DNA from: Salipiger bermudensis | GTDB lineage: Bacteria; Pseudomonadota; Alphaproteobacteria; Rhodobacterales; Rhodobacteraceae | NCBI RefSeq assembly: GCF_020171625.1 | Contig: NZ_JAIUZY010000011.1 | Location: forward strand, 124,001 to 188,000 | Length of the DNA: 64,000 bases | Reading direction: 5' to 3' | Part shown: positions 3,405 to 36,170 of the stretch, piece by piece | Position numbering within the stretch: position 1 is the stretch's first letter | Layout of the letters: every line of letters starts with the position of its first letter | Made by a program: the position numbers and the translations under genes | The notes under the pieces: model-generated | What the model saw: only the letters and a program-made list of their open reading frames with translations | Databases searched by the model: none | What the model was told of the DNA's origin: nothing

Positions 3405-3427
3405 TCAGCCGCGCGCGGGAGGACGTG

Positions 3428-4324
3428 ATGCAATTCCGCGCGCGCATTCTCGGGGCCGCGGCCGGGGGCGGCCTGCCGCAGTGGAACTGCGGTTGCGGGA
3501 ACTGCCGGCGCGCCCGTGCCGGAGAGATCCCGGCGCAGACCCAGAGTTCGCTCGCCGTCTCGGCCGATGGTGAGAACTGGGCGATCCTCAACGCCTCGCC
3601 CGACATCCGGGCGCAACTGGCCGCCACTCACGAACTGCACCCCACCGGCCTGCGCGACATGCCGCTGCGCTCCGTGCTGCTGACCAATGGCGATATCGAC
3701 CACGTGGCGGGCCTGCTGACCTTGCGCGAGATGCAGCCTTTCACGCTCTTCGCCACCGCCGGCATCCACGAAGTGCTGGCCGCGAACCCGATCTTTTCCG
3801 CCCTGAACGCGTCCGTCGTGACCCGCGCCAACGTGGCGCTCGAGGCCCCGGCCGAGATCGTTCCGGGCCTGACCGCCACGCTCTTTGCCGTGCCGGGAAA
3901 GGTGCCGCTCTACATGGAGGGCGAAACGGTCGAGACCGACCTCGTGGGCGAGCAGACCGTGGGGGTCGAGCTGAAGACCGAGGCCGAGACCGTCTATTAC
4001 ATCCCCGGCTGCGCCCTGCTGAACGACGCCCTGCGCGCGCGCCTTCAGGGGGCCTCGCTGATCTTCTTCGACGGCACGCTCTGGCGCGATGACGAGATGG
4101 TGCGCGAAGGCCTCGGACAGAAGACCGGCAGACGCATGGGCCACATGTCGATGAGCGGTGACGACGGCTCCATCGCCGCCTTCGCGGGGCTCGACATCGG
4201 CCGCAAGGTCTTTGTCCACATGAACAACACCAACCCCGTGCTGCGGCCCGGCTCGGAAGAGCGACAGGCGGCGGAGGCGGCGGGATGGATCATCGGTCAG
4301 GACGGTATGGAGGTGACGGCATGA
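3428..4324 (+). CDS. pqqB: PQQ biosynthesis protein PqqB (metallo-beta-lactamase-fold hydroxylase)
   Basis: 298 residues, the usual PqqB length. The N terminus has the zinc-binding cysteines QWNCGCGNC (Cys21, Cys23, Cys26), and the metal site motif is TNGDIDHVAGLL in place of the classical HxHxDH of beta-lactamases, as is typical of PqqB. Known role: iron-dependent oxidation during PQQ maturation in the cytoplasm. The start at 3428 follows GGGAGGACG; its stop overlaps pqqC by ATGA at 4321, so the two are coupled. Confidence 0.95.
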   Translation: MQFRARILGAAAGGGLPQWNCGCGNCRRARAGEIPAQTQSSLAVSADGENWAILNASPDIRAQLAATHELHPTGLRDMPLRSVLLTNGDIDHVAGLLTLREMQPFTLFATAGIHEVLAANPIFSALNASVVTRANVALEAPAEIVPGLTATLFAVPGKVPLYMEGETVETDLVGEQTVGVELKTEAETVYYIPGCALLNDALRARLQGASLIFFDGTLWRDDEMVREGLGQKTGRRMGHMSMSGDDGSIAAFAGLDIGRKVFVHMNNTNPVLRPGSEERQAAEAAGWIIGQDGMEVTA

Positions 4325-5070
4325 CCCAGACACACGCAGAGTTCGAGGCCCGGCTGCGCCAGATCGGCGCCGAGCGCTATCACGATCTGCACCCGTTCCA
4401 TCACCGGCTGCATGGCGGCGACTGCAGCCCCGACGAGGTGCGGGCCTGGGTCATCAACCGCTACTACTACCAGCATTCGATCCCGATGAAGGACGCCGCC
4501 TTCATGTCCCGCGTCGAGGACCCGGACCTGCGCCGCGCGTGGCGCAGCCGCATCGAGGATCACGACGGCACCGAGACCAACGAGGGCGGCATCCGCCGCT
4601 GGCTGCGGCTGGCCGAAGCGGTGGGGCTCGATCCCGACTATGTCGCCTCCCGCGAGGGCGTTCTGCCGGCGACCAAGTTTGCTGTCGACGCCTATGTCCG
4701 CTTCGTGCGCGACAAGACCCTGCTCGAGGCGGTGGCGGCGTCCCTGACCGAACTCTTCGCGCCGAAGATCCACGCCAACCGCATCGAAGGACTGCTGAAG
4801 AACTACGCCTTCGCCGACGAGTCGTCCCTCTCCTACTTCCGCAACCGTCTGACCGAGGCGCCCAAGGACGTGGCGTTCGGCCTGCAATGGGTGCTCGACC
4901 ATGCCGACACGCAGGAAAAGCAGGACGCCGCCGCCAAGGCGCTGATCTTCAAGACCGATGTGCTCTGGTCGCAGCTCGATGCGCTTTGGGGCGCCTATGT
5001 GGAACCCGCCCGCATCCCGCCCGGCGCGTGGCAGCCGGGCGAGGGCCTTGCCAGCGCGCAGGCGGCCTGA
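4321..5070 (+). CDS. pqqC: Pyrroloquinoline-quinone synthase PqqC
   Basis: 249 residues, the all-helical TenA-like oxidase that carries out the last ring closure and oxidation of PQQ without cofactor. Recognisable family blocks are YHDLHPFHHRLHGG near the N terminus, INRYYYQHSIPMKDAAFMS, and RIEDHDG, which contain the active-site His, Tyr and Arg residues. Start by ATGA overlap with pqqB; the TGATG at 5068-5072 couples it to pqqD. No truncation or unusual residue is visible. Confidence 0.95.
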   Translation: MTQTHAEFEARLRQIGAERYHDLHPFHHRLHGGDCSPDEVRAWVINRYYYQHSIPMKDAAFMSRVEDPDLRRAWRSRIEDHDGTETNEGGIRRWLRLAEAVGLDPDYVASREGVLPATKFAVDAYVRFVRDKTLLEAVAASLTELFAPKIHANRIEGLLKNYAFADESSLSYFRNRLTEAPKDVAFGLQWVLDHADTQEKQDAAAKALIFKTDVLWSQLDALWGAYVEPARIPPGAWQPGEGLASAQAA

Positions 5071-5342
5071 TGCAAGAAGGCGAGATCCCCACCCTGCCCC
5101 GCGGCGTGCGCCTGCACTGGGACCGGGTGCGCGAGACTTGGGTGCTGCTGGCGCCCGAGCGCGCCATCACCCTCGACCAAGTCGGCCACGCCATCCTGTC
5201 GGAGGTCGACGGGCACCGCAGCTTCGGCGAGATCACCGCCGGGCTCGCCGCGAAGTACAACGCGCCTCAGGAGCAGATCGCCAAGGACAGCGCCGGATTC
5301 CTCGGTGCCCTGAGGGAGCGGCGGTTCCTGGAGGTGTCGTGA
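5070..5342 (+). CDS. pqqD: PqqA-binding chaperone PqqD
   Basis: 90 residues, the standard PqqD length. The characteristic core WVLLAPERAITLDQVGHAILSEVDG is present. PqqD is a RiPP recognition element that binds PqqA and presents it to the radical-SAM enzyme PqqE. It starts inside the pqqC stop (TGATG at 5068-5072). In many bacteria pqqD abuts or is fused to pqqE; here 166 bases separate them, bridged exactly by a small coupled open frame (next entry). Confidence 0.94.
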   Translation: MQEGEIPTLPRGVRLHWDRVRETWVLLAPERAITLDQVGHAILSEVDGHRSFGEITAGLAAKYNAPQEQIAKDSAGFLGALRERRFLEVS

Positions 5343-5512
5343 TGCCTCCAAAGCTCCGCTCGAACCGCAGCGCCCTGCCCACCGGCGGGCGCCTCAACGC
5401 CATCCCGCGCCGATCCTTCGGCAGCCCGCACGACACCCCCTCACCCATGCCAACGGTCGCAAACGCCCCCGCAGGGGCGGACGTGGCCCTCCGCCAACGG
5501 GACCAGCCATGA
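5342..5512 (+). CDS. Possible small coupled ORF between pqqD and pqqE
   Basis: A 56-codon frame starts in the TGATG that ends pqqD (5340-5344) and stops in the ATGA that starts pqqE (5509-5512), so a ribosome could pass through without re-initiation elsewhere. The predicted product is Pro, Arg, Ser and Ala rich (MPPKLRSNRSALPTGG at the start), without a domain, signal or membrane segment. It may be a genuine small peptide, a translational bridge, or a palindromic intergenic element that happens to keep frame. I do not recognise it and do not assign a function. Confidence 0.3.
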   Translation: MPPKLRSNRSALPTGGRLNAIPRRSFGSPHDTPSPMPTVANAPAGADVALRQRDQP

Positions 5513-6618
5513 CCACAGCCCGCCCCCCCATCGCCATGCTGGCGGAACTCACCCACCGCTGCCCGCTGTCCTGCCCCTATTGCTCGAACCCGATCGAGAT
5601 GGCGCGGCAGGAGACCGAGCTTGCCACCCAGGACTGGGCCCGCGTCTTCGCCGAGGCCGCCGATCTCGGCGTGCTTCAGCTTCACCTCTCGGGCGGCGAG
5701 CCCGCCACCCGGCGCGATCTCGAAACGCTTGTGCGCGCGGCGCGAGAGGCCGGCCTTTACACCAACCTCATCACCTCGGGGATCGGGCTGACGGAGCGGC
5801 GGCTCGACGCGCTCGATCAGGCCGGCCTCGACCACGTACAGCTGTCGCTGCAAGGCACGACGCCCGAGATGGCGGACGAGATCGGCGGCTACAGGGGCGG
5901 CTTCAAGCGCAAGATGCAGGTCGCCGAATGGATCGGTGCGATCGGCTTTCCGCTGACGCTCAACGCCGTGCTCCACCGCCGCAACCTGCACCAGCTGCCC
6001 CGCGCCATCGAGATGGCGGTCGAGATGGGCGCGCGGCGCATCGAGGTGGCCACCGTGCAGTTCCACGGCTGGGCGCTGAAGAATCGCGACGCGCTGATGC
6101 CGACCCGCGAACAGGCCGCAGAGGCCACGCGGATCGTGCAGGAGGCTAGGCTGCGCCTCAAGGGCACACTGGTGATCGACTACGTGCCGGCGGATTACCA
6201 TTCCGACTATCCCAAGCGTTGTATGGGCGGCTGGGGCTCGACCGGGCTCAACGTTACCCCCGACGGCCAGGTGCTCCCCTGCCACGCGGCCCAGACCATC
6301 CCGCATCTCAGCTTCGACAATGTCCGCGACAAACCGCTCTCCGAGATTTGGTACGAGGGCGCCGCCTTCAACGCCTATCGCGGCACCGACTGGATGCCCG
6401 AGCCCTGCGCTTCCTGCGAGCGCAAGACCGTCGATTTCGGCGGCTGCCGCTGCCAGGCGATGGCTCTGGCGGGCGATCCGGCAGCCACCGACCCGGTCTG
6501 CATCAAGTCGCCCCACCATGTCGACCTGCAGGCCCGGGCCGAGGCGCACGCCGCGGCCGACGGCGCCGCACTGGTCTACCGCGCCGCGCCCGGCAAGGCC
6601 CCCGAACCCGCCGAATAA
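5509..6618 (+). CDS. pqqE: PqqA peptide cyclase PqqE (radical SAM)
   Basis: 369 residues. The radical-SAM cluster motif CPLSCPYC gives Cys18, Cys22 and Cys25. The SPASM/twitch region holds the auxiliary cluster cysteines (CMGGWGSTGLNVTPDG, LPCHAAQ, EPCASCERK, GGCRCQA and a terminal DPVC). The enzyme makes the Glu-Tyr carbon-carbon bond in PqqA with PqqD as partner. Last gene of the operon; a large imperfect inverted repeat follows at 6630-6702. No pqqF protease is present in the window, so PqqA trimming must rely on a gene elsewhere. Confidence 0.96.
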   Translation: MTTARPPIAMLAELTHRCPLSCPYCSNPIEMARQETELATQDWARVFAEAADLGVLQLHLSGGEPATRRDLETLVRAAREAGLYTNLITSGIGLTERRLDALDQAGLDHVQLSLQGTTPEMADEIGGYRGGFKRKMQVAEWIGAIGFPLTLNAVLHRRNLHQLPRAIEMAVEMGARRIEVATVQFHGWALKNRDALMPTREQAAEATRIVQEARLRLKGTLVIDYVPADYHSDYPKRCMGGWGSTGLNVTPDGQVLPCHAAQTIPHLSFDNVRDKPLSEIWYEGAAFNAYRGTDWMPEPCASCERKTVDFGGCRCQAMALAGDPAATDPVCIKSPHHVDLQARAEAHAAADGAALVYRAAPGKAPEPAE

Positions 6619-6994: not shown

Positions 6995-8182
6995 ATGAGG
7001 GCAGACGTGGCGGATACCATACATATCAACGCGCGTGTACGGGAGAACGCCGAAGCACTGACTTCGGCGCTGGAAGACCACATGCTCAAGGTCTTCGCCC
7101 CCGACGCGCGCAAGGAACTTCGGCGCTTCTCCGCAGGGGAAGCGGCCGAACTGCTTGGTATCTCGGCCAGCTTCCTGCGCAAGCTCCATTTCGACAACCG
7201 CATCCCCGAGGTTCATACCACGCCCGGCGGAAGACGACACTATTCCGCCGCCGATGTGCTCCAGATCCGCAAGGTGCTCGACAGCACCGCGAAGACCAAG
7301 GGCACCTACCTGCGCGGCCGCCGCGAGGGCGACAAGGTGCAGGTGCTGTCCTTCCTCAACTTCAAGGGCGGCTCGGGCAAGACCACCTCGTCGATCCACA
7401 CCGCGCAGCGGCTCGCGCTCAAGGGTTATCGCGTGCTTTGCGTCGATATCGACCCGCAGGCCTCGCTGACCACGCTGTTCGGCTACCGCCCCGAGTATGA
7501 TTTCCTCGAGTCCGGGACGATTTACGACGCGATCCGGTACGACGATCCGCTACCACTGAGCCAGATCATCCAGCCGACCTTCTTCACCGGCATCGATCTG
7601 GCCCCCGGCGGGCTGATCCTGCAGGAATTCGAGCATGAGACGCCGCAGGCGCTGATGACCAACGTGCAGCCCGCCTTCTTCGCCCGCATGGCCGCGGCGC
7701 TGCAGGAGGTCGAGGCGAATTACGACGTAATCATCTTCGATTGTCCGCCGCAGCTTGGCTATCTCACCATGTCGGCGCTTTGTGCCTCGACCGGGGTGCT
7801 GATCACCATCGTGCCGAACATGCTCGACATCGCCTCGATGTCGCAATTCCTGCAGATGAGCGCCGACCTGCTCGACGTTGTGTCGAATGCCGGCGCCAGC
7901 ATGGAATTCGACTTCCTGCGCTTCATGATCAACCGCTACGAGCCCAATGACGGCCCGCAGCAGCAGGTCGTGGCCTTTCTCCGCCAGCTTTTCGGCGAGG
8001 AGGTCATGGTCAACGCCATGCTCAAGTCCACGGCGATCTCGGATGCCGGTCTCACGCAGCAGACCGTCTACGAGGTCGACCGGAGCCAGTTCCACCGCAA
8101 CACCTACGACCGCGCGGTGGATTCACTGAATCAAGTCAATGACGAGATTGAGTCGCTCATTCAGAAAGCATGGGGGCGCTGA
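6995..8182 (+). CDS. repA: Plasmid partition ATPase RepA (ParA family)
   Basis: 395 residues from ATG 6995. The N terminus holds a winged-helix/HTH region (RRFSAGEAAELLGISASFLRKL), then the deviant Walker A motif FKGGSGKTTSS at about residues 123-133, and DIDPQASLT (Walker A'). This is the RepA of repABC replicons: it moves plasmid copies with RepB and represses the operon. A GTG at 7007 has the better-spaced ribosome binding site (GAGGG at 6997-7001) and could be the real start. The stop overlaps repB by TGATG at 8180-8184. Confidence 0.93.
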   Translation: MRADVADTIHINARVRENAEALTSALEDHMLKVFAPDARKELRRFSAGEAAELLGISASFLRKLHFDNRIPEVHTTPGGRRHYSAADVLQIRKVLDSTAKTKGTYLRGRREGDKVQVLSFLNFKGGSGKTTSSIHTAQRLALKGYRVLCVDIDPQASLTTLFGYRPEYDFLESGTIYDAIRYDDPLPLSQIIQPTFFTGIDLAPGGLILQEFEHETPQALMTNVQPAFFARMAAALQEVEANYDVIIFDCPPQLGYLTMSALCASTGVLITIVPNMLDIASMSQFLQMSADLLDVVSNAGASMEFDFLRFMINRYEPNDGPQQQVVAFLRQLFGEEVMVNAMLKSTAISDAGLTQQTVYEVDRSQFHRNTYDRAVDSLNQVNDEIESLIQKAWGR

Positions 8183-9162
8183 TGGCACGCAAGGGAATTC
8201 TCGAACCACGCATCACACCGCTGGGCGGCGGATCGGCTCCAACCGACCGGAAGAGCGCCGCCGAGGCGCGGATGATGCCACGCGGCGCGGTCGGCGCGCT
8301 GCAATCCTCGCTCACCAAACTGCAAGAAAACGCGGTGCAGGAGGTGGACCCCGCGCTGATCGACGATGCCGGCTACGAAGACCGGCTCGGGATCAACGAC
8401 GAGGCGCAGAACCAGCTGAAAGAGAGCCTGCAGACCTATGGTCAGCAGGTTCCCGTGCTTTTGCGCCCCCACCCCAAGAGCGCCGGACGCTACGAGATCG
8501 TCTATGGCCGGCGCCGCCTCAGGGCGCTGCGCGACCTTGGCCTCAAGGTCAAGGCGATGGTGCGCCAGCTCGACGACCACGCGTTGGTCATGGCGCAGGG
8601 CCAGGAAAACACCTCGCGGCAGGATCTGAGCTTCGTCGAAAAAGCCAGCTTCGCGGCGCAGCTGCAGGAGGGCGGCTATGACCGGCAGACAATCGCCGCG
8701 GCGCTGTCGATTGACCTGCCGATGGTCAGCCGGATGCTCAAGGTGGGCACGGCCTTCTCGCTGCCCTTCCTGCGCCGCATCGGCTCGGCCCCCGGAATCG
8801 GGCGCGATCGCTGGATGAGCCTGGCCAAGCTGCTGGAGGACGGCGCCGCGCAGACCCGTGTCGAGAGCGCCATGGCCGCCCCGGGCTTCGAGGAGCTCGA
8901 TTCCGACGCCCGCTTCGAGGAGGTGTTCGGCGCCGCGCAGCGCAAGACCGCCACCCCGGCCAAGGCCCCTGCCCCGCGTCCGCGCACCCTGCGCACGGTG
9001 GATGGCGCACCGCTGGCCGAGATCCGCAGCACCGGACGGGGCCTGACCCTGACCGTCCCGTCGAAAACCGCAAACGGCTTCGACCGCTGGCTCGACAAGC
9101 AGGCGGAAGAGATCATCAAAGAGCTTCACGACCGCTGGCAAAGCACCCGGTCGGAGGACTGA
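8182..9162 (+). CDS. repB: Plasmid partition DNA-binding protein RepB (ParB family)
   Basis: 326 residues. The ParB N-terminal CTPase/clamp region includes GRRRLRAL and QENTSRQDLSFVEKA, followed by the HTH IAAALSIDLPMVSRMLKVG that reads parS. The C terminus is a basic, likely dimerising tail. It starts inside the repA stop codon. Its probable target is the 22-bp palindrome at 10814-10835 and flanking half sites. An in-frame ATG at 8170 lies inside repA and is less likely. Confidence 0.93.
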   Translation: MARKGILEPRITPLGGGSAPTDRKSAAEARMMPRGAVGALQSSLTKLQENAVQEVDPALIDDAGYEDRLGINDEAQNQLKESLQTYGQQVPVLLRPHPKSAGRYEIVYGRRRLRALRDLGLKVKAMVRQLDDHALVMAQGQENTSRQDLSFVEKASFAAQLQEGGYDRQTIAAALSIDLPMVSRMLKVGTAFSLPFLRRIGSAPGIGRDRWMSLAKLLEDGAAQTRVESAMAAPGFEELDSDARFEEVFGAAQRKTATPAKAPAPRPRTLRTVDGAPLAEIRSTGRGLTLTVPSKTANGFDRWLDKQAEEIIKELHDRWQSTRSED

Positions 9163-9205
9163 GAGCAGTAGAAAGATAACAAGGAGGCACGAGAGGACAG
9201 GCGAC

Positions 9206-9257
9206 AAAAGAAAAGCCCCCCAGGATTGATCCCGGAAGGCCCTTCTCGAACGTAGCA
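9206..9257 (-). ncRNA. Predicted repABC antisense RNA (ctRNA) between repB and repC
   Basis: On the minus strand a TTGACA (9291-9286) lies about 18 bases before TAACTC (9267-9262), giving a start near 9257. The transcript would run into a 15-base-pair hairpin (arms 9244-9230 and 9225-9211, tetraloop TCAA, only Watson-Crick and G-U pairs) followed by a T-rich tail (to about 9206), a good intrinsic terminator. repABC replicons are known to encode a counter-transcribed RNA of about this size here, which blocks repC expression and sets copy number. Ends are approximate. Confidence 0.65.
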
Positions 9258-9343
9258 ATTTGAGTTAGCCGCCAGACCCGGACTCTGTCAACCATGCATC
9301 GCGGTGCAGGGGCGGAGAATTGTTGTCTTTCGTGAAATGTCAC

Positions 9344-10495
9344 ATGGAAAACACGTCCCGACCCCCGTTCGGGCGACCGGTTGCGGCTTGTCTGCCGTCA
9401 TCGGACGCCTCGCAACGGCACACTCCCCCTATGCCCGACAAATGGGCGCTGTTGCGCGACCTGACCACCGGCGCCGAGGCGTTCGGTCTTGGTCATCGCA
9501 CGCTGTCGGTGCTGAAGGCGCTGCTGACCTTCTGGCCGGAGCGCGAATTGCCCGGCGACCCCGACGGTGCGATCGTCTTTCCGTCGAACCGGGTGCTGTC
9601 CGAGCGGCTTTCGGGGATGCCCGAGAGCACGTTGCGCCGGCATCTGGCCAAGCTCGTCGAGATCGGCATTGTCAGCCGTCACGACAGCCCCAACCGCAAG
9701 CGCTATGCCCGCGGACAGTCTGGTGTGATCGGCATCGCCTTCGGGTTCGATCTCTCCCCCCTCGCCCGCCATGCCGAGGAATTCGCCTCGGCCGCGGCCC
9801 TCGTGACCGCACAGCGCGAGCGCATTTCGGTGCTGCGCGCCAAGCTCGGGATGCTGCGGCACCGTCTGACCGAAGATGGCGCCCCGGACGAGCTGATCGA
9901 CGCGGCGCGGCTGATGCTGCGCCGCCGGGCCTCCGAGCAGGATCTGGCCGGCCTCGTGACCCGCCTCGAGGCCGCGATCCCTGCCCCGGATGCCGTAACG
10001 CCCACGCCCCAGCCCGTCACGGAAACAACCAGAATGAGCGCCAGCGCCGCCCGAAATGAGCGGCACATACAAGAAACAGATAAAACTATTTCTGACTCTG
10101 AGTCCGCGCCCTCGTCTGACGCAGCGCTCACCGAGAGCGCGGGATCTGCAGAGAAGGTGACAGCGATCACCGTTCCGATGATCACCGAAGCCTGCCGAGA
10201 GTATCGGGCCTTCTTCCCCGATCAGCCACGAGGCTGGCACGATGTCGTGTCGATTTCCCAGAGGCTGGCGCCGATGCTCGGGATCGATCCGCCGGTGCTG
10301 CAGGAGGCGCAGCGGATCATGGGCCATGAGCGCGCCGCGGCGACGGTGCTCTGTCTGCTCGAACGCGCCAACGAGATCCGAAAACCCGGCGCCTACCTGC
10401 GACGGCTGACACAGGTGGCACGCAAGGGCAGCTTCTCGGTCGGTGCGATGCTGTCGGCGGCCAGTCGGCGCGCGCCCGTGCCGGCCTTTGCCTGA
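9344..10495 (+). CDS. repC: Replication initiator RepC
   Basis: 383 residues from ATG 9344, with the RepC signature FGRP near the N terminus and a winged-helix initiator region (FPSNRVLSERLSGMPESTLRRHLAKLVEIGIV). RepC is the replication initiator of repABC plasmids, and the origin normally lies within its own coding sequence. The ATG has no good ribosome binding site; TTG 9323, with GGAG six bases upstream, would add seven residues. Position after repB and the predicted antisense RNA confirms the family. Residues 230-260 form a low-complexity linker. Confidence 0.92.
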   Translation: MENTSRPPFGRPVAACLPSSDASQRHTPPMPDKWALLRDLTTGAEAFGLGHRTLSVLKALLTFWPERELPGDPDGAIVFPSNRVLSERLSGMPESTLRRHLAKLVEIGIVSRHDSPNRKRYARGQSGVIGIAFGFDLSPLARHAEEFASAAALVTAQRERISVLRAKLGMLRHRLTEDGAPDELIDAARLMLRRRASEQDLAGLVTRLEAAIPAPDAVTPTPQPVTETTRMSASAARNERHIQETDKTISDSESAPSSDAALTESAGSAEKVTAITVPMITEACREYRAFFPDQPRGWHDVVSISQRLAPMLGIDPPVLQEAQRIMGHERAAATVLCLLERANEIRKPGAYLRRLTQVARKGSFSVGAMLSAASRRAPVPAFA

Positions 10496-33318: not shown

Positions 33319-33660
33319 ATGTCCTATCGCCTTGGCCTTACGGTCATAATGGTCTTTGCGATCGTGGCCATCGGCTGCGGTCTGTGGGGCTATTTCGTCC
33401 CGCTCACCGGCGTCACCGGAGTCTGGGGGCCGCTCGCCGCCGCCTTCGGCGCGCTTTGCATTCTCATCGGCGGTGCGCTGATGGTGCGTGCCCGCAGCCG
33501 CGGTGCCCGCTTCGTGCTGATGCTGCTTCTGGCGCTCGGCATCGTTCTGACCGCCTTTGCCGCTTGGTTGCTGCACCAGTGGATCATGCTGGCCGCGCTA
33601 GCGCTCTGCGCCGTTGGCTGGCTGGCCGCCGTTTCCGGACCGGAAGGAGATGTCGCATGA
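33319..33660 (+). CDS. Small four-helix membrane protein, predicted membrane anchor of the quinoprotein
   Basis: 113 residues, four hydrophobic helices (about 5-27, 36-56, 66-88, 90-108) with a basic loop RARSRGAR. Membrane glucose dehydrogenases normally carry such a helical bundle fused to the N terminus of their PQQ domain; here it is a separate gene that overlaps the quinoprotein start by ATGA (33657). I infer a split anchor and quinone-contact subunit. The ATG at 33319 follows ACAGGAG. In-frame upstream starts would remove the helical start and are disfavoured. Confidence 0.72.
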   Translation: MSYRLGLTVIMVFAIVAIGCGLWGYFVPLTGVTGVWGPLAAAFGALCILIGGALMVRARSRGARFVLMLLLALGIVLTAFAAWLLHQWIMLAALALCAVGWLAAVSGPEGDVA

Positions 33661-36170
33661 ACCGACTTTTGCGATCCACCGCCATCCTGACCCTGCTCGC
33701 CGGACCGGCGTTCGCGCAGCAGGACGACACCCCCGGCCCGACCGGCGAACCCGAGGCCGTGGCGCCGGAGACCTCCGTGTCCGCGCCGGAGCAGACCGCG
33801 CCGGAGACAGACGAGAGCGAGACGTCGTCCGAGCCTGCCGCGACAGATGCTGACTCGGACGCCGAACGTGAGGCGGCACCGGCCCGCGATGCTGCCGATC
33901 CGGAGACCGCCGAGACCGAGGGCGCCACGCCCGCAGCCGACGCGCCGGCCGCTGAGCCGGGCACGGCAGACGAGGATGCGGAAGGCTCCGAAGAGGCAGC
34001 GCCAGAGCCGGAAGCCGACGAGGAGGGGGAGGCGCCGTCCGAGTCCGCAGGGGCGGGCGCCGGTGAGGAGGCCGATGAAGAGGCGGCACCGGCCCGCGAT
34101 GCTGCCGATCCCGACACCGCCGAGACCGAGGGCGCGACGCCCGCAGCCGATGCGCCCGCCGCAGAGACCGGCACGGCTGAGGGCGCCGAGGAGGCGCCTG
34201 CCGACGGCGAGGAGACCGAAGAAGACGGGTCTGGAGAAGATGGGTCCGCTGAAGAGGACGCATCCGCCGAAACCGACCAACAGGCCGCGCAGGCGCGTCC
34301 GTCTTCGGATGCGAAGGTGCCCGCCTCCGGGCCGGACTGGAAGAGCTTCCACGGCCAGGTTTCCGGGGCGAAGTATTCGCCGCTCGACCAGATCACGCCC
34401 GAGAATGTCGGCGAGCTGGAGCTTGCCTGGCGGCTTGAGACCGGCGACGTCTCGGACGGCTCCGGCGACCTGCCGGCGACGGTCTGGTCGGCCACGCCGA
34501 TCTACGCCAACGACCTGCTCTATATCGGCACGCCGTTCTACCGGGTGCTCGCGGTCGATCCGGCGACCGGCGAGGAGGTCTGGAGCTTCGACAGCCAGTC
34601 GACCCTCGAGGCGCTGACCCAGCCCGCCCTGAAGAACCGCGGCGTGGCCTACTGGGAGGCCGCCGAGCCGGTCGAGGGCGAGGCCTGTCAGCGCATCGTC
34701 TATCTCGGCACCATGGACGCGCAGCTCTTCGCGCTCGACGCCGATGACGGTGCGCTCTGCGAGGGTTTTGCCGATGGCGGCGTGCTCGACGTCAACCAGT
34801 GGAACACCGTCAACGACCGCTGGCCGCTGTCGCTGCTGCAGCCGCCCACCATCGTCGACGATCACGTCATCATCGGCTGGGCCGGCAATGACTGGGACTG
34901 GGCCGAAGCGCCTCCGGGCTCGGTGTTCTCGGTCAACGCGCAGACCGGCGAGCTGGAATGGACCTTCGACACCATCCCCGAGGACATCCGCGAACGCACC
35001 GGCACCGCCAACGTCTGGACCGCGATGAGCGCCGACGAGGAGCGTGGCATCGTCTACCTGCCGGTGGCCTCGCCTTCGCCCAACTACTGGGGCGGCAACC
35101 GCACCGAGGACATTCCGTATGCCACCTCCACAACCGCGCTCGACATCGAGACCGGCGAGGTGATCTGGTCGCGGCAGTGGGTGCATCACGATATCTGGGA
35201 CTATGACATCAACTCGGCCCCGACGCTGATGGACATCACCGTCGATGGCGAGGAGATCCCGGCCCTGATGCAGGCCACCAAGATGGGCTTCCTCTTCGTG
35301 GTCAACCGCGAGACCGGCGAGGATGTCTGGCCGATCGAGGAGCGCGAAGTGCCTGCGGGCGACATCGAGGGTGAGCGCTACGCCCCGACCCAGCCCTTCC
35401 CGACCGTGCCGGCGCCGCTCATCGACCAGTCGACGCTGCCCGATGTCTGGCCGCTCGCCGATATCGCCTCGTTCGGGGCCTGCTCGAAGCTGTGGGACGA
35501 GATGCAGTATGCCGGCATGTACCAGCCGCCGACCACCGAGGGCGCCGGGGCAGGGGCCTATCCCAACTCGGCCGGCGTGGTGCAGTGGGGTGGCGTGGGC
35601 TTCGACCCCGAGCGCCAGCTCGCGGTGGTCAACCTCAGCCACGTGGTGCAGTACATCCAGCTTTACGAGCGCGAGGATTACGACCGCATCAACGGCGAGG
35701 CCGGCCCCGGCGAGAGCGGCTTCCACCCGCAGACCGGTGCGCCCTACGGCATGTCGCTCAAGACCGCGCTGAACCGCTGGGGAATGCCGTGCTGGAAGCC
35801 GCCCTTCGGTGAGCTGGCGGCGATCGACATGACCACCGGCGAGATTGTCTGGCGCAAACCGTTCGGCACCTCGCAGCGCTACGGCTTCTACATGCCCGAG
35901 AAGTGGGGCTCTCCCACCATCGGCGGACCTGCCGTGACCGCCTCGGGGCTGATCTTCATCGGCGCCACGATGGACGCCAAGGTGCGCGCCTATGATCTTG
36001 AGACCGGCGAGAGGCTCTGGGAAGACCTCACCGAGGCGCCTTCGGTCTCGAACCCGGCGATCTACGAACATGACGGCGCGCAATACGTGGCCTTCGTCTC
36101 GGGCGGGAACTCGATCCTGAAGCCCTCGGTGGGCGACATGGTCTCGGTCTACCGCCTGCCGGTGGAGTGA
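33657..36170 (+). CDS. PQQ-dependent dehydrogenase, membrane glucose dehydrogenase family, with acidic linker
   Basis: 837 residues. Sec signal (residues 1-20, ending GPAFA), then a roughly 205-residue Glu/Ala/Pro/Thr-rich acidic segment containing a duplicated block (about residues 72-105 and 142-175). The eight-bladed PQQ propeller starts at about Asp227 (DWKSFHGQVSGAKYSPLDQIT). Family landmarks: HHDIWDYDINSAPTLMD with catalytic-type Asp517, ATKMGFLFVVNRETG with PQQ-contacting Lys542, PTQPFPTVP, and GLIFIGATMDAKVRAYDLETG. It should oxidise a sugar or polyol in the periplasm. It lacks the usual fused membrane helices; the coupled upstream gene may supply them. A strong terminator follows. 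Confidence 0.88.
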   Translation: MNRLLRSTAILTLLAGPAFAQQDDTPGPTGEPEAVAPETSVSAPEQTAPETDESETSSEPAATDADSDAEREAAPARDAADPETAETEGATPAADAPAAEPGTADEDAEGSEEAAPEPEADEEGEAPSESAGAGAGEEADEEAAPARDAADPDTAETEGATPAADAPAAETGTAEGAEEAPADGEETEEDGSGEDGSAEEDASAETDQQAAQARPSSDAKVPASGPDWKSFHGQVSGAKYSPLDQITPENVGELELAWRLETGDVSDGSGDLPATVWSATPIYANDLLYIGTPFYRVLAVDPATGEEVWSFDSQSTLEALTQPALKNRGVAYWEAAEPVEGEACQRIVYLGTMDAQLFALDADDGALCEGFADGGVLDVNQWNTVNDRWPLSLLQPPTIVDDHVIIGWAGNDWDWAEAPPGSVFSVNAQTGELEWTFDTIPEDIRERTGTANVWTAMSADEERGIVYLPVASPSPNYWGGNRTEDIPYATSTTALDIETGEVIWSRQWVHHDIWDYDINSAPTLMDITVDGEEIPALMQATKMGFLFVVNRETGEDVWPIEEREVPAGDIEGERYAPTQPFPTVPAPLIDQSTLPDVWPLADIASFGACSKLWDEMQYAGMYQPPTTEGAGAGAYPNSAGVVQWGGVGFDPERQLAVVNLSHVVQYIQLYEREDYDRINGEAGPGESGFHPQTGAPYGMSLKTALNRWGMPCWKPPFGELAAIDMTTGEIVWRKPFGTSQRYGFYMPEKWGSPTIGGPAVTASGLIFIGATMDAKVRAYDLETGERLWEDLTEAPSVSNPAIYEHDGAQYVAFVSGGNSILKPSVGDMVSVYRLPVE
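33871..34180 (+). repeat. Direct duplication inside the acidic linker of the quinoprotein
   Basis: Bases 33871-33970 and 34081-34180 are about 90 percent identical by eye and exactly 210 bases apart, in frame. Each encodes APARDAADP, then TAETEGATPAADAPAAE. The duplication has lengthened the linker in 70-residue steps. Confidence 0.8.

Follow-up and report, generated by a model that had tools for sequence, protein, structure and literature searches.

Among described quinoproteins, the closest to the system reported here are Gcd and the sorbitol or polyol dehydrogenase SldBA, both of which use pyrroloquinoline quinone (PQQ). In Gcd of Escherichia coli (b0124), a five-helix membrane N-terminus is fused to a periplasmic PQQ propeller, while Gluconobacter SldBA has a small hydrophobic gene directly upstream of a gene for a separate PQQ propeller; the principle of a detached anchor is therefore known already. 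SldA reportedly requires SldB for activity, as the titles of Shinjoh 2002 and Miyazaki 2002 have it. Passages of PMC8927921 present SldBA as two subunits, sldB and sldA. Glucose dehydrogenase (GDH) groups 1b and 2 are Gcd-related propellers with a D-x-D motif, described without membrane domains in a passage of PMC11996626 whose section on them names no anchor partner, and are compared here by description only. The subject of this study is a gene pair of Salipiger bermudensis, positions 33319 to 36170 of a 64,000-nucleotide stretch (the window; contig NZ_JAIUZY010000011.1, positions 124,001 to 188,000), in which a gene for a small four-helix membrane protein (P0001) lies directly before a gene for a secreted PQQ propeller (P0002). 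The two products very probably form a two-subunit, membrane-bound, periplasmic PQQ dehydrogenase with the small protein as its anchor; the enzyme probably oxidises a sugar or a polyol/alcohol, a substrate class that we infer. No published description of this pair was found among the matches listed, judged on titles and abstract openings and on some passages. As far as the literature searched shows, what is new is a family of anchors that shows no detectable relationship to Gcd, a propeller clade of its own and a later fusion of the two.

The gene pair and its conservation

The element has the following features.

33319..33660, + strand: small four-helix membrane protein, 113 residues, proposed membrane anchor subunit (translation, AlphaFold2 model, place upstream of the propeller, fusion)
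33400..33429, + strand: conserved first periplasmic loop of the small protein, P28-L-T-G ... G37 (alignment)
33657..33660, + strand: ATGA stop/start overlap of the small gene and the propeller gene (sequence)
33657..36170, + strand: PQQ beta-propeller dehydrogenase precursor, 837 residues, catalytic subunit (translation, PF01011, TIGR03074)
33657..33716, + strand: Sec signal peptide, residues 1-20, AFA-Q (sequence, motif script)
33717..34337, + strand: acidic low-complexity linker, residues 21-227, predicted to be disordered (composition, model confidence)
34338..36167, + strand: propeller domain, residues 228-837 (PF01011 match, tree)
35199..35207, + strand: D515-Y516-D517, presumed catalytic aspartate (E. 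coli Gcd D466) and D-x-D metal motif (alignment)
35280..35282, + strand: K542, matching K493 of E. coli Gcd (no exception in 85 sequences)

An earlier note on this DNA (the original prediction) had described a 113-residue four-helix protein overlapping, by ATGA, a propeller with its own Sec signal and an acidic linker of 205 residues. That description holds, with open reading frames (ORFs) at 33319-33660 and 33657-36170, four helices in the AlphaFold2 model and a 20-residue signal; the linker is slightly longer, at 207 residues, and consists of 32% aspartate and glutamate and 2% lysine and arginine. The model of the small protein, made with 42 homologues, places the helices at residues 3-26, 36-57, 61-84 and 88-106, with a mean predicted local distance difference test score (pLDDT) of 88.6 and a predicted template modelling score of 0.79. 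The small ORF was picked by hydrophobicity and place alone, before the PLTG motif came to light, and the motif is present in all 80 sequences (79 loci and the window). P28, L29, T30, G31 and G37 are invariant across 42 aligned sequences, and the loop degenerates in the most distant members of the family. One genome (G891) has two split pairs (L166 and L167), and one of its small proteins carries LGNG in place of PLTG. The mean number of lysines and arginines per small protein (42 rows) is 1.43 at the N-terminus, zero in loop 1, 2.29 in loop 2, 0.02 in loop 3 and 1.74 at the C-terminus; because loops 1 and 3 are nearly free of these residues and the other three segments are positive, the protein is read as having both termini inside. 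By this positive-inside pattern, the two conserved segments, the PLTGVTG loop and the LHQW turn, are predicted to face the periplasm.

The 42 small proteins gave only scattered weak family matches, with a best E of 0.0012 in NCBIfam and 0.0038 in Pfam among the best 25 of 44 and 25 of 39 families, respectively. TgpA_N was the commonest family match listed (19 of 42 proteins, best E 0.0071), and was set aside, being far below the cut-off for P0001 and P0003. A sequence search of the PDB with the small protein returned nothing at E 10, and Foldseek with its model returned no match at E 0.001 or better, the top matches being generic helix bundles.

The propeller precursor begins with MNRLLRSTAILTLLAGPAFA-QQ, after which the linker extends as far as W228; cleavage sites were guessed with a simple motif script, not a signal-peptide program. 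AlphaFold2 leaves the linker unstructured, with block means of pLDDT between 24 and 42 from residue 21 to 240. By a rough script that could measure 72 of 80 rows (79 loci and the window), linker length ranges from 4 to 207 residues with a median of 49, so the long acidic linker does not appear to be conserved across relatives. By eye, a stretch resembling EAAPARDAADPETAETEGATPAADAPAAE occurs twice in the linker (window 33720-34330), the copies having diverged; Tandem Repeats Finder reports three short arrays only. The propellers of this family have eight blades. PF01011 matches residues 228-811 (645.8 bits, E 9.7e-194), and TIGR03074, the model for membrane-bound PQQ dehydrogenases of glucose, quinate or shikimate, aligns over profile positions 135-783 only. 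The membrane N-terminus of that model is absent from P0002, whose 539.2 bits stay below the whole-protein cut-off of 832.65. P0002 has four cysteines (344, 368, 609 and 712) and no CXXCH, and does not show the heme c domain of quinohemoprotein alcohol dehydrogenases.

Conservation of the pair was examined in the best 80 of 122 propeller relatives from a scan of the genome collection. A hydrophobic ORF of about 110-125 residues (start trimmed) ends at the propeller start in 79 of the 80 loci; the remaining locus (L078) begins at a contig end, where the small gene cannot be judged. When the start is taken as the in-frame ATG nearest the stop codon, the -4 overlap is the same in 47 of 80 rows (79 loci and the window), the gap is at most 30 nucleotides in 79, and one pair is 106 nucleotides apart. 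The hosts include Rhodobacterales, Halomonadaceae, Roseospira, Bradyrhizobium and Salinisphaera. A tblastn search with the propeller matched 584 plasmid records; seven of these were examined, and six have a "hypothetical protein" directly upstream of it (Pantoea soli, Klebsiella pneumoniae, Acinetobacter venetianus, Salipiger profundus, Paracoccus aestuarii and Sulfitobacter sp. OXR-159); in the seventh, from Limimaricola variabilis, the two proteins are fused. Apart from the pair and shadow frames, no neighbour is common to most loci, the best others occurring in up to about 18 of 80. It is hardly conceivable that the two genes are neighbours by chance or through an artefact confined to one lineage. 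Nothing beyond the missing family name of the small protein speaks for such a reading, and the pair is kept in Rhodobacterales, Halomonadaceae, Salinisphaera, Bradyrhizobium, Roseospira, Pantoea, Klebsiella and Acinetobacter as the other neighbours vary.

Searches from the other side, with profiles of the small protein, led to the same pairing. Within the family 8 of 248 genomes match, all beside or fused to a propeller. Three of 240 genomes match within the class, namely the Salipiger genome itself, G337 (beside a propeller) and G349, and within the phylum seven of 398 match at eight places, all of which adjoin a propeller and one of which is the window itself. The total is 23 different genomes, the eight of the fused genus included, and in 22 the small protein is beside or fused to a propeller. 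A uniform neighbour test counted as a partner any stretch free of stop codons that held four or more hydrophobic segments and lay no more than 1.1 kb upstream or 0.9 kb downstream of a propeller. It finds an upstream partner in 79 of 80 pair loci, in three of three further members (L144, L146, L147) and in two of three SldA-type genes (L100-L102, which we name SldA/SldB by layout, not by annotation), and no partner for any of 18 soluble-type (L103-L119) or 11 further propellers (L135-L143). These control propellers are 31-43% identical to the better match of the window's propeller and the fused propeller of the same genome; a weak propeller match on L136 (27.8% identity) was left out.

Fusion, probable membrane anchoring and the soluble alternative

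In one genus (that of G107) the small protein is in frame with the propeller in eight of eight genomes, with open frames of 749-856 codons. The junction consists of the four helices, a positive stretch (e.g. SRKGHDRR), a signal-peptide-like helix and the propeller, in that order; the helix ends in A-x-A-Q in seven of the eight genomes and in V-x-A-Q in the other. A complete plasmid of Limimaricola variabilis carries a frame of this kind as well, with 750 codons that span the origin of the record, and since its row pairs with G540 (100/99) in the second of two propeller trees, the genus is probably Limimaricola. This second tree is smaller than the first, which has 52 rows, and L134 dropped out of it. 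The nine fused rows form one clade (100/100) with split neighbours, so the fusion is most simply taken as derived and single. Open frame 754 of G891, a candidate for another fusion, was ruled out, as both pairs of that genome are split. The in-frame fusion throughout the genus is strong evidence that the small protein is a membrane anchor.

In the proposed mechanism, the periplasmic propeller, with PQQ and a metal bound, would oxidise a sugar or polyol. The small protein would dock it on the membrane through the two conserved periplasmic loops and would probably offer the electrons of PQQ a path to ubiquinone; both this contact and the reduction of quinone are proposed by analogy with SldBA. 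The linker, its length being so variable, would be a spacer and probably not essential. In the fused genus the signal peptide would have become a bridge joining both parts, giving again a layout of four helices plus one plus propeller.

The propeller could instead be a soluble periplasmic enzyme feeding cytochrome c, with the small protein helping in assembly as a co-transcribed factor or serving only as a tether that takes no part in redox chemistry. A signal peptide with an A-x-A site, a variable disordered linker and the existence of related propellers without a membrane partner are all consistent with such an enzyme, and in one plasmid cytochrome c oxidase genes come after the pair. It is nevertheless unlikely, given the genus-wide in-frame fusion and the near-total conservation of the pair. 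No conserved cytochrome partner is seen either, since P0002 has no CXXCH and an ORF with CXXCH lies near the pair in only seven of 80 loci (stretches of up to 6 kb on each side).

Several points weigh against a two-subunit enzyme with a membrane anchor. For the propeller, single-chain AlphaFold2 modelling gave a mediocre result (mean pLDDT 62.6). The zero counts of the uniform test are not absolute, as the test missed the SldB-type partner of L101 and the fused L145. The match in G349 (E 3.9e-4) has no propeller within a 3.2-kb stretch, and is probably due to chance. Since a motif like that of signal peptidase survives in the fusions, the fused chain may still be cut in two. On the plasmid of Sulfitobacter sp. 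OXR-159 (L170, 2402-7806) the pair is followed by genes for cytochrome c oxidase assembly, a c-type cytochrome and ctaD, and these possibly fit a flow of electrons to cytochrome c, at least there.

Taken alone, the propellers of this clade look soluble and could be mistaken for enzymes linked to cytochromes; should the small protein prove to be their anchor, direct delivery of electrons to ubiquinone is probable.

Relation to the anchors of Gcd and SldB

The original prediction of a two-subunit enzyme with a detached anchor stands as far as the two parts are concerned: the pair recurs in other genomes (79 of 80 loci), the lack of conservation that would have spoken against it was not seen, and the parts are fused in eight of eight genomes of one genus. 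The idea of the small protein as a detached Gcd anchor did not survive comparison with the Gcd N-terminus, where no similarity was found. BLASTP of the small protein against the Gcd-type enzyme of the same genome gave E 0.22. With hhalign, 42 small proteins against 12 Gcd/SldB anchors gave a probability of 2.5, a broader 24-row set of small proteins gave 0.26, and scripted runs of the small family against Gcd anchors, local and global, were negative. A hidden Markov model (HMM) of the Gcd/SldB anchors scored at most 4.7 bits on 80 small proteins and up to 9.5 on their reversed versions, while positive controls from outside the profile reached 107.5 bits (E. coli Gcd) and 122.8 bits (an SldB-type protein). 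In the other direction, HMMs of the small family scored at most 2.7 bits on Gcd/SldB anchors and up to 11.8 on reversed anchors. Homology to the Gcd anchor was rejected on these BLASTP, hhalign and two-way HMM comparisons; what the two kinds of anchor appear to share is layout, without detectable sequence similarity.

SldB-type anchors differ in this respect, being recognisable Gcd N-termini: TIGR03074 recognises two of three (E 2.3e-28 and 4.0e-28). Among the best 25 of 44 families listed for the 42 small proteins this model is absent, and the order of that list leaves room for at most a single member matching it at E 0.29 or worse. The propellers differ as well. In the 52-row tree, midpoint-rooted, the pair clade (28 rows) has 100/100 support and a long stem of 1.48 changes per column, and SldA-type rows fall within the fused Gcd rows (99/96). 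The SldA row L100 joins the fused L090 and L096 at 85/55 in the second tree, with a warning of long branches; both trees place it with fused Gcd rows and outside the pair clade. Because SldA lies among Gcd rows and the pair clade apart, the two splits are most simply separate events.

The small protein could still be a true but very diverged homologue of helices 1-4 of the Gcd/SldB anchor, and the system an old SldBA-type split of Gcd. In length, four-helix topology with the N-terminus inside, gene order and kind of partner it resembles SldB, and small membrane proteins generally lose their sequence signal fast. This origin is doubtful, though somewhat less so than the soluble enzyme: the hhalign probabilities, the Gcd/SldB HMM scores below reversed controls, the success of TIGR03074 with SldB-type partners and the position of SldA within fused Gcd rows all argue against it. 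Barring extreme divergence, the anchor is not a homologue of the Gcd N-terminus, and its propeller is not a member of the SldA clade. An anchor without similarity to Gcd, beside a propeller clade apart from Gcd and SldA, suggests instead a separate and so far unnamed family, probably recruited independently of Gcd and SldB. The fuller reading, that an unrelated four-helix family was independently recruited as a quinone-reducing module and later fused through the signal peptide in one genus, converging on the layout of Gcd, is tentative and falls a little short of probable. If it is true, the anchor is hidden in the records examined as a "hypothetical protein" beside a soluble-looking dehydrogenase, and bacteria may have reached this design more than once. 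A comparison of the three anchor types (Gcd, SldB and the present one), and of split with fused forms in one clade, would allow a test of which part meets the quinone.

Active site and genomic setting

The active site was mapped on E. coli Gcd in 85 sequences (80 loci, four plasmid records and the window). The positions of D354, W404, D466, K493, N607, R266 and D730 are identical in all of them. D515 and K542, which we take to be the catalytic aspartate and lysine, are present in 85 of 85, as TIGR03074 has them in its PQQ propellers; Y516 is equally invariant. D517 gives the D-x-D (lanthanide-type) motif, with an aspartate two residues past the catalytic one, and occurs in at least 97% of the 85 sequences, while D515-Y-D517 is found in 27 of 27 of another set. 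The pair thus resembles Gcd in its catalytic residues and in combining membrane helices with a periplasmic propeller, and the fused Limimaricola-type form has the same layout; it differs in the unrelated sequence of its separate anchor and in residues replaced in every one of the 85 sequences, with tryptophan at N355, serine at T424 and asparagine at H775. The position of H262 is alanine in 61 and valine in 24. The tryptophan at N355 marks the pair clade, other rows listed keeping asparagine or, twice, valine or histidine. Not every difference is a mark of the pair, since the fused enzyme of the same genome (P0003) also has asparagine at the H775 position and five fused Gcd rows lack N607. N355 and T424 presumably lie near the metal, and H262 and H775 presumably affect glucose binding; with these roles the replacements hint, as a guess from the alignment, at a substrate other than glucose. 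D-x-D is taken as a sign of lanthanide binding in a passage of PMC11996626, according to which m-GDH of E. coli carries it too. The clade, which bears this motif, is represented on plasmids from clinical, plant-associated and marine bacteria. The neighbours offer no clue to the substrate, as no other gene recurs in most of the 80 loci.

The genome also encodes an ordinary fused Gcd-type enzyme, P0003 on contig C27, which at 978.6 bits is above the TIGR03074 cut-off and is 36% identical to the split propeller; the split enzyme is therefore a second enzyme and not a broken Gcd. PQQ biosynthesis genes in the order pqqB, C, D, E lie at window 3422-6615, on the contig that carries the pair and about 27 kb away from it. 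Of these, pqqE is above the TIGR02109 cut-off, pqqC was assigned by the Pfam TENA/PQQC family, pqqB by a beta-lactamase-fold match and context, and pqqD by eye. The presence of pqqE on the contig of the pair counts in favour of a PQQ enzyme. A third gene for a PQQ propeller, different in kind, is found 3-5 kb upstream of the window start (C11:119405-120949), on the contig shared with pqqE. Genes for RepA-like ParA, RepB and RepC are present at window 6995-10495, and contig C11, with its 199.8 kb, is probably a plasmid or chromid of the repABC type; these repABC-type genes and the plasmid-borne pair of Salipiger profundus agree on a plasmid location.

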